This document shows, piece after piece, positions 10,002 through 11,957 of a stretch of 64,000 nucleotides of DNA. The stretch spans positions 310,001 through 374,000 of the forward strand of contig PLCM01000041.1 of the NCBI GenBank assembly GCA_003134765.1, in the 5' to 3' direction. Below the pieces are notes generated by a model, which saw only the letters and a program-made list of their open reading frames with translations, was not told the DNA's origin and did not search any database. The position numbers were made by a program, and so were the translations under genes. The DNA comes from Spartobacteria bacterium (GTDB lineage: Bacteria; Verrucomicrobiota; Verrucomicrobiia; Chthoniobacterales; UBA10450). How positions within the stretch are numbered: position 1 is the stretch's first letter; each line of letters begins with the position of its first letter.

Positions 10002-11957
10002 TTACAGCGAAGCGGTCTCTGCGCCACCGCCAATCGTCTCCGCTGGTTCCACCCACTTCCCGTGTTCCCGAATCAGATCCTGTAAACGGTCAACCGCCTC
10101 CGCTTCCGGGATGTTGAATTTCACCGCGGTCTTGCCCACGTAAAGGTTCACCTTGCCTGGCGCGCCGCCCACATAGCCGAAATCCGCGTCCGCCATTTCC
10201 CCCGGCCCGTTCACGATGCAACCCATGATGGCGATCTTCACGCCTTTGAGGTGCAAGGTCTTCTCCTTGATCCGGGCCGTGGTCGTTTGAAGATTGAACA
10301 AAGTACGGCCGCACGATGGACAGGCCACGTAATCGGTCTTGAAAATGCGTGAACCGGCGGCCTGCAGGATATTATAGCTCAGTCGCAATGCCTGCCCTGG
10401 CGCCTCTTCCCCCTGGATCAGGATCGCGTCGCCAATTCCATCACAGAGAAGCGAGCCAATATTGGTTCCCGCGTTCAAGAGAACGTGGAGGAATGACGAA
10501 TGTCGAAGGTCGAAGGTCGAAGGAATGACGAAGCCCGAATCGCTTTTCGTCGTTCGATCATTCGAGCTTCCTTCGTCATTCGTCATTCGTGCTTCGTCAT
10601 TCCCAAGCGAGTCCTTCAGTAAAATCGGATGGCGCGCGGCAACCTTCGACGCGAGCAACCGAAACGCGACGATCACGGGCAGATCCACGTCCTCCCGGAT
10701 CGTGACGAGTTGCGGCTCAACCTCAGCGTTCACTTGCCGAACGGCCTCGTTATCCCGCGGATCGACTTCTCGAACGCGCGCCTTTTCATAAACGATCTCC
10801 GGCTTGTAATCCCCGAGCCGGTCGATCTTGTGCGCGACCTTATCGAAGGTGGTTTGCCTAACGACTACCCGGATCAGTTCCTCGCCGCCTAATTTCACTC
10901 CATTGCGTTCAATCGTTTTCGACCCGCGTCGCTGATACGAAAACGGATCGAACGAAATACCACCGCAGCGCTCTGCCCGCTTTCCGGTTTCCGGTTTCCG
11001 GTTTCCGGTTTCCACTAACGCCCGCGCCACCGGAATTTCATGAATACTATCCTCGGTGAGCGACACCCTGATCGTATCTCCAATCCCGTCGTGGAGGAGC
11101 GAGCCGATGCCAATCGCGCTTTTGATCCGGGCGTCCTCGCCTTCCCCCGCTTCAGTGACTCCGAGGTGGATCGGATAACTCCAGGAAAAGGATGAAGGAT
11201 TAGGGATGAGGGATGAATAGGTCGCGGGATCGCCGTTTTCCTTCATCCTTCCTCCTTCATCCTTCATCCCTTCTTCCCCCAGCCGCGCGACCAGCAGGCG
11301 ATAGGCGTTGATCATTACCTTCGGGTTGCTCGATTTCATGGAGAAGACGAAGGCGTGGTAATCGAGGTCGCGCGCGATCCGGGCGAATTCGAGCGCGCTT
11401 TCCACCATCCCCAGCGGTGTGTCTCCGTAACGATTCATGATGCGATCCGAGAGCGAGCCATGGTTGGTGCCGATGCGGATCGCGCGCCCCAGTTCCTTGC
11501 AAAGCTTGACCAGCGGCGTGAACCGCTCGCGGATTCTTTCCAGCTCCGCGGCGTACTGCTCGTCCGTGTATTCGAGAATCTTGAACTTCTTCGAATCGGC
11601 GTAATTCCCGGGATTGATCCGGACTTTCTCCACCCATTTCGCCGCTTCCATCGCGGCCTCGGGTTTAAAATGAATGTCGGCCACGATCGGCACGTCGCAG
11701 CCGCGCTCGCGCAAACCTTTCACGATCTCCCGCAGATTCGCCGCGTCCTTCACCGTCGGCGCCGTGATCCGCACGATCTCGCAACCGGCTTCCGCCAGCT
11801 CGATTGTCTGCGCGATCGACGCTTCGGTGTCCATCGTGTCGCAGGTGATCATTGACTGGACCCGAATCGGATGTGTGCCTCCGATCCCGACACGGCCGAC
11901 CATTACCTCACGCGTGGCGCGGCGCTGATAAGAATAGGATGAGTGGCAGTACTCCAT
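10002..11957 (-). CDS. ispG: 4-hydroxy-3-methylbut-2-en-1-yl diphosphate synthase, long form with in-frame repeat insertions
   Basis: Penultimate iron-sulfur enzyme of the MEP isoprenoid pathway, converting MEcPP to HMBPP. The N-terminal TIM barrel (VGIGGTHPIRVQSMITCDTM) and the central domain of the plant/Chlamydia-type enzyme are present. In the C-terminal domain, CPSCGRT and CIVNGPGE supply the Fe-S cysteines and Glu. MEYCHSSY at 11957 matches the family N-terminus; upstream codons overlap ybjQ. The protein is 651 residues because repeat DNA is translated at about residues 228-257, 315-327 and 452-490, each between well-conserved blocks. The ybjQ stop lies one base before this ATG. Confidence 0.95.
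   Translation of the reverse strand: MEYCHSSYSYQRRATREVMVGRVGIGGTHPIRVQSMITCDTMDTEASIAQTIELAEAGCEIVRITAPTVKDAANLREIVKGLRERGCDVPIVADIHFKPEAAMEAAKWVEKVRINPGNYADSKKFKILEYTDEQYAAELERIRERFTPLVKLCKELGRAIRIGTNHGSLSDRIMNRYGDTPLGMVESALEFARIARDLDYHAFVFSMKSSNPKVMINAYRLLVARLGEEGMKDEGGRMKENGDPATYSSLIPNPSSFSWSYPIHLGVTEAGEGEDARIKSAIGIGSLLHDGIGDTIRVSLTEDSIHEIPVARALVETGNRKPETGKRAERCGGISFDPFSYQRRGSKTIERNGVKLGGEELIRVVVRQTTFDKVAHKIDRLGDYKPEIVYEKARVREVDPRDNEAVRQVNAEVEPQLVTIREDVDLPVIVAFRLLASKVAARHPILLKDSLGNDEARMTNDEGSSNDRTTKSDSGFVIPSTFDLRHSSFLHVLLNAGTNIGSLLCDGIGDAILIQGEEAPGQALRLSYNILQAAGSRIFKTDYVACPSCGRTLFNLQTTTARIKEKTLHLKGVKIAIMGCIVNGPGEMADADFGYVGGAPGKVNLYVGKTAVKFNIPEAEAVDRLQDLIREHGKWVEPAETIGGGAETASL
10490..10604. 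repeat. Tandem-heptamer inverted element inside ispG (third insertion)
   Basis: The left arm has gaatgacgaa and three gtcgaag units; the right arm has cgtcatt units (ttcgtcattcgtcattcg). Centre bases separate the near-complementary arms. The reading frame passes through without a stop, adding about 39 residues between ILLKDSLG and LLNAGTNIGS. The same heptamer is found at 32845-32943. Confidence 0.8.
10978..11015. repeat. Tandem CCGGTTT repeat inside ispG (second insertion)
   Basis: Heptamer units of the type ttccggt occur about five times in a row. They encode a GNRKPETGKR-type stretch between IPVARALVE and FDPFSYQRR, where the family normally has a short linker. Confidence 0.75.
11187..11274. 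repeat. GGATGAAG/CTTCATCC inverted heptamer element inside ispG (first insertion)
   Basis: One arm carries ggatgaaggattagggatga; the other carries ccttcatcc units. It is translated between RLGEEG and YPIHLGVTEAGEG, adding about 30 residues with no counterpart in the usual family alignment. Confidence 0.8.

Follow-up and report, generated by a model that had tools for sequence, protein, structure and literature searches.

All three variable loops of IspG in a member of the Chthoniobacterales are filled by repeats built from 7-bp units, and core enzymes such as IspG appear to tolerate repeated colonization by junk-like DNA. We consider it probable (about 0.75) that small non-autonomous repeats with 7-bp units survive in length-tolerant loops of core enzymes, which would thereby act as recurrent landing pads. 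The repeats are dispersed, lie in frame within genes, are restricted there to loops, turn over as occupants, and are read in a biased direction. In the reading that we prefer, they would be copies of small families scattered through the genomes of one Chthoniobacterales family, either as simple heptamer arrays or as imperfect palindromes of ∼90 to 130 bp with heptamer arms. They would be copied by some machinery, would persist within genes in a few loops and be read in frame there, and would succeed one another there, family after family, by separate arrivals, of which genome G018 offers the best case.

The window, that is, the whole 64,000-nucleotide stretch of DNA that was analyzed, is part of contig C1 of a 4.05-Mb draft genome (G000). 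The nearest named relatives of its IspG belong to Verrucomicrobia, Chthoniobacteraceae, Chthoniobacterales, and Candidatus Udaeobacter MAGs, so the host family within the Chthoniobacterales is probably Udaeobacter-like. The ispG gene is a minus-strand ORF of 651 aa (10002-11957, with the ATG at 11957 and the stop at 10002) whose frame is open throughout. Its product scored 456.9 bits with profile TIGR00612 (cut-off, 280.25), and its matches to two longer IspG equivalog models were under their own cut-offs; a PDB sequence search returned four distinct IspG chains, each matched piecewise only. Among the 58 genomes searched, all those compared being draft assemblies, 55 had an IspG match, and we aligned 50 proteins, 31 from the same family and 19 from other families. 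Cys546, Cys549, Cys580, and Glu587, which we take to be the ligands of the cluster, were invariant across this alignment. The IspG core is kept under strong purifying selection, with a dN/dS of 0.077 between G000 and G006, compared to 0.576 for loop 1. Elsewhere in the window, a 6-base/30-base tandem repeat (5707-5839) encodes a Thr-Ala/Pro-rich linker in a 1,393-aa ORF (4902-9083).

The preliminary description had placed three repeats inside ispG without interruption of the frame, and the ORF, the coordinates, and the repeats are as it described. In loop 1, an AATGACG-type heptamer palindrome (10490-10604, minus strand; inverted arms at 10490-10532 and 10561-10603) encodes NDEARMTNDEG...FVIPSTFDLRHSSF. 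This loop has 61 aa here and 30 to 36 aa in 31 of the 47 IspG proteins with a complete loop 1, the 16 longer ones all coming from the same family. In loop 3, an AAGGATG-type heptamer palindrome of about 88 bp (11187-11274, minus strand; arms at 11187-11217 and 11242-11272) encodes GMKDEGGRMKENGDPATYSSLIPNPSSF. Loop 3 has 51 aa here versus 25 aa in 44 of the 50 aligned proteins and in 77 of 80 named loci, a set that overlaps in part with the aligned genomes, so we rejected an ordinary conserved domain as the origin of the extra residues. Two other family members carry different loop-3 inserts (43 aa in G025 and 39 aa in G027). Loop 2 contains a GGAAACC-type array (10978-11015, minus strand) encoding GNRKPETGKR, which is detected as 5.3 tandem copies of CCGGTTT at 10977-11013. 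As its 35 aa lie within the 28 to 51 aa found in relatives with an uncut loop 2, this repeat would have replaced loop sequence or arisen within the loop. The three stretches encode about 38, 13, and 29 residues in coordinate order, not the 30, 13, and 39 first proposed, and they change the length relative to relatives by about +28, 0, and +26 aa, so that only the first and the third are net insertions.

The loop-1 insert is a copy of a dispersed palindrome of roughly 110 to 130 bp with arms of 7-bp units, which measures 112 bp in the window IspG and 78 to 146 bp among 15 copies listed. Copies lie outside called genes in both G000 and G006; one of them, at 32842-32943, upstream of nfo, is the unit that had been noticed in a gap near 32845. 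A 16-base pattern of the loop-2 array occurs at 4 further sites in G000, and the loop-3 element has one near full-length relative there (G000:C41:181765-181850, 74%) in addition to partial matches. The genome searches scored limited candidates, and the matches quoted are those among the ones listed.

A strict scan of 400 kb of C1 found 24 period-7 arrays, compared to 0 in one Markov simulation, 2 arrays at period 6 (Markov, 0), and none at the remaining periods from 4 to 24. With looser settings, G000 had 32 arrays at period 7, 8 at period 6, 5 at period 12, 3 at period 9, 1 each at periods 5 and 15, 20 at period 14 (a harmonic), and none at periods 4, 8, 10, 11, and 13. The looser counts at periods 7 and 6 were 23 and 8 in G005, 13 and 4 in G007, 13 and 3 in G019, and 11 and 10 in G003, which shows little preference for period 7; G006 had 34 period-7 arrays. 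Tandem 7-bp units are thus over-represented, as in heptameric simple sequence repeats, and none was found, at either period, in 400 kb of G043, from another family of the same order. The strict and looser scans, set against the Markov control, exclude a chance origin of the repeats. The units are rich in AA or TT, which occurs in the unit rings of 114 of 126 arrays versus 49% of G000 heptamers, and by eye they often read AA-NNN-SS. In G056, which belongs to another family of the order, a reversed control pattern, itself a heptamer array, gave 185 matches (98 in forward and 87 in reverse orientation), indicating that a distinct heptamer family is abundant in another part of the order.

The 126 arrays come from six family stretches, about 2.2 Mb in total and selected for containing ispG, in which called genes (predicted with a hexamer-based caller of our making rather than with a standard program) make up 0.86 to 0.90 of the DNA. 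Eighty-three arrays are intergenic, such as the AACGTCC array at 29543-29584 in the window, 33 are internal to genes, and 10 are terminal. It is very improbable that the loops are ordinary fast-evolving low-complexity linkers rather than repeat elements: loop 2 does vary in length and sequence in other families as well, but the periodicity lies at the DNA level and centers on 7 nt, and the full-length relatives of the loop-1 element elsewhere in the genomes contradict such a reading.

All 33 gene-internal arrays fall within seven gene families (IspG, GcvP, DXR, PrmC, CysS, PyrC, and UvrA), a sample in which the ispG-based choice of stretches over-represents ispG and neighbors such as dxr. Profiles were used to check IspG, GcvP, DXR, and PrmC in G000, CysS in G006, PyrC in G007, and both UvrA proteins in G003; the other gene copies were named by search coordinates, with CysS of G000 and G007 and PyrC of G019 named by shared flanks only. 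At a threshold of 12 matches in 14, the 31 family IspG proteins contained 24 period-7 segments, distributed over 14 genomes and confined to the three loops, versus 5 segments in total at eight other periods tested. The 19 IspG proteins from other families had 1 segment at period 7, compared to 7 at the other periods. Likewise, 30 GcvP proteins contained 25 period-7 segments in 17 genomes, in two loops only, and 2 at other periods. DXR was occupied at one site in G000, G003, G005, G006, and G007, and PrmC at aa 102-103 in G000, G005, G006, and G019, with four different units. The occupants in the window are an in-frame AACGTCC-type array in dxr (14493-14521, minus strand; peptide SVQRPTFN) and an in-frame AATGCGG-type array in prmC (36192-36226, minus strand; at aa ∼102). 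The dxr gene (13836-15059), which also belongs to the MEP pathway, thus carries its own insert about 2 kb from ispG, and the insert peptide had weak matches at four other places in G000 among those listed, the CysS insert included. In G003, two UvrA-type genes (L200:1211-4132 and L200:11562-17483) have internal heptamer arrays, one of which is a palindromic pair.

The units in the IspG loops often differ between genomes of the family, and other relatives hold unrelated palindromes. Loop occupants and GTAG tags were all identified by eye. Palindromes with a GTAG tag are present in loop 3 of G025 and in loop 2 of both G027 and G033, and four repeat families were recognized in loop 1: the AATGACG palindrome in five genomes, a palindrome encoding WEGPQRPD-like peptides in four, and palindromes encoding HPERREAK-like and PASSIQ-like peptides in two each. 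Each family was found in at least two genomes, and 17 of 30 genomes, two outgroups counted in, had none of the four. On this set of 28 family genomes and 2 outgroups (G021, G024, and G030 were dropped, their loop being cut or masked), parsimony required 11 changes of occupant, compared to a mean of 12.3 and a minimum of 10 with shuffled labels. The value lies within the shuffled range, so that turnover is evident and a number of insertions is not derivable from it. The preliminary description had presented dispersed, mostly non-genic repeats in frame in an intact core enzyme, which holds, and three separate entries into this one copy, which is not supported, as the middle repeat adds no length and the loops are occupied repeatedly across the family.

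Comparison of individual loop-1 elements pointed to both inheritance and separate arrival. The elements of G000 and G006 are probably orthologous and inherited from a common ancestor, since they are 88% identical, whereas the next full-length copies listed share 69 to 79% with the G000 element; short partial matches to it reach 100%. G005, the nearest genome to G000 in our tree, lacks this element, and therefore either a loss or a wrong branch has to be assumed. In contrast, G018 appears to have gained the AATGACG family at loop 1 separately, since its element scores higher against dispersed copies (82 to 86%) than against the IspG copies of G000 and G006 (80%), a modest contrast in which the latter copies are also shorter. 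On this moderate evidence, we rejected a single inherited insertion behind every loop-1 element. The dispersed copies and the apparent separate arrival in G018 together suggest that the elements are mobile. In ispG of G028 (L006:2135-2280), the loop-1 palindrome contains, by eye, further short hairpin-like inserts in frame, an apparent nested insertion within a core gene.

Alternatively, ancient heptamer arrays may be fixed in the loops, their units changing in place by slippage or ectopic conversion with little or no insertion. Measured from the conserved right boundary, different units fall in the same 7-nt phase at GcvP site 1 (fraction of random rotations, 0.0021), at GcvP site 2 (0.0026, with two rotations of one unit counted as two), and at PrmC (0.0023). 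A shared phase of this kind is more readily explained by arrays that were inherited and changed in place than by repeated insertion; loop lengths are also frequently constant. The phase was, however, not significant at IspG loop 2 (0.17) or DXR (0.11), in a test from which the DXR palindrome of G006 and the one unit of a different family (G054) were excluded and in which CysS had no anchor and PyrC had the identical unit in both genomes. Moreover, single 7-nt slips would break the frame, and change in place does not account for the lengthening of loops 1 and 3 by palindromic elements, GTAG REPs, and further palindromes. We therefore regard exclusive change in place as possible but tentative. 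Both processes may operate, with insertion accounting for loops 1 and 3 and unit change within old arrays for some others. A more speculative version, which we consider rather doubtful, is that the loops hold long-lived 7-bp arrays whose units are replaced between species while position, phase, and direction are kept, through DNA synthesis or repair that advances in 7-nt steps. If true, it would amount to concerted evolution or templated resynthesis specific to the 7-nt period and frame-safe inside essential genes, and the same putative activity would also build the palindromic elements.

The landing-pad reading supposes that the repeats are translated. The gene frame was open through the AATGACG element in 5 of the 5 IspG genes that bear it, whereas among the nine listed copies that lie outside genes, 37 of 54 frames contained stops. 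Of 23 unpaired gene-internal arrays, 22 were read in the direction that gives the more hydrophilic peptide (p = 2.9e-6), whereas 21 of 51 unpaired intergenic arrays had this direction relative to the nearest gene; the 10 internal palindrome arms were split 5:5. The open frames and the biased direction argue against the inserts being spliced out or skipped in translation, and their recurrence across separate assemblies argues against assembly errors, explanations that we find scarcely credible. An AlphaFold model of IspG (34 sequences) had a mean pLDDT of 82.6, with values of <50 only at aa 240-256 (loop 3), at aa 455-485 (loop 1), and in the C-terminal tail, and an average of 53 in the block with the loop-2 array; low values in the inserts are partly expected, as most aligned relatives lack them. 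The inserts should be translated as flexible hydrophilic segments and would be nearly neutral for enzyme function.

We also considered that the elements are kept for a function, either at the RNA level, as hairpins that act on the transcript, or at the protein level, as peptide linkers of some use. The RNA folds of the loop-1 and loop-3 elements were stronger than those of shuffled sequences (z = -5.16 and -3.08), and synonymous divergence was low in loop 1, with a pS in the element versus the core of 0.18 versus 0.51 between G000 and G006 (few sites), 0.34 versus 0.66 with G018, and, less markedly, 0.58 versus 0.68 with G028. However, the fold of the loop-2 array was barely stronger than those of shuffled sequences (z = -1.15), the turnover of loop-1 occupants shows almost no phylogenetic signal, loop 3 is short in 44 of 50 aligned IspG proteins, and only 43 of the 126 arrays lie inside or at the ends of called genes, so a retained function is unlikely.

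Regarding the machinery that would copy the repeats, we found neither a heptamer array nor a GTAG palindrome at the 7 Y1_Tnp loci of the genome (2.2 to 3.3 kb each). On these 7 loci, we rejected mobilization by a neighboring Y1 transposase; a transposase located at a distance could still act. In a comparison with MITEs, which have terminal inverted repeats and a target-site duplication, inverted repeats are present, and by eye no clear target-site duplication was seen in comparison with insert-free sites, where the loop flanks have diverged.

Under the landing-pad reading, essential enzymes whose corresponding loops receive unrelated repeats in different species would provide a natural experiment, in which one could measure across species how proteins tolerate selfish DNA, how it is translated, and how it turns over. 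Annotators should be aware that such residues are repeat-derived, and the preference for a 7-nt period itself calls for an explanation. The phenomenon, best known from Rickettsia and Opitutus, would thereby extend to soil bacteria.

Rickettsia palindromic elements are 105 to 146 bp long and occur in intergenic regions and in frame in conserved genes (PMC2229807, PMC3733652), and a guanylate kinase carrying one was shown to be active (PMC2229807). The loop-1 palindrome resembles them, by description, in size, dispersal, and presence both between genes and in frame, and the likeness in effect drawn in the preliminary description is borne out, as dispersed repeats sit in frame without breaking a core enzyme. 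The loop-3 element is shorter, however, and the present repeats differ in belonging to another phylum, in having arms of 7-bp units, in including non-palindromic arrays, and in that the same loops are shared by several unrelated families. Intragenic REPs of the GTAG and CGTC types are found in the largest numbers in Opitutus terrae, a member of the Verrucomicrobiota, and in Rickettsia conorii; both uvrA genes of O. terrae carry double REP insertions, and different REPs lie at about the same recB site in two Xanthomonas (PMC3733652). GTAG REPs are hypothesized to be moved by RAYT transposases, whereas CGTC REPs apparently have no dedicated one (PMC3733652). Our elements share with intragenic REPs the in-frame palindromes in core genes, uvrA of G003 also bearing arrays, but the window elements are built from heptamers and, by eye, have no GTAG tag at the palindrome end. 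Elsewhere in G000, 400 kb contained 6 GTAG palindromes, compared to 0 in one simulated sequence. Heptameric repeats of Xanthomonas and Nostoc are dispersed tandem 7-bp units that are under-represented in coding DNA and have been discussed as G-quadruplexes (PMC4692102); those of Geobacter metallireducens lie between and within genes (PMC2700814), and others are known from Beggiatoaceae (PMC4679880). The present arrays are likewise dispersed tandem 7-bp units, but fixed protein loops, unit change between species, and a direction bias are not reported in the available portions of the Xanthomonas/Nostoc and Geobacter accounts (PMC4692102, PMC2700814). We found no account of a heptamer-in-loop system in the open-license literature, although one could still have been published. 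In-frame palindromes are thus already known, and what is new here is the heptamer make-up, the recurrent loops, and the apparent replacement of units between species.
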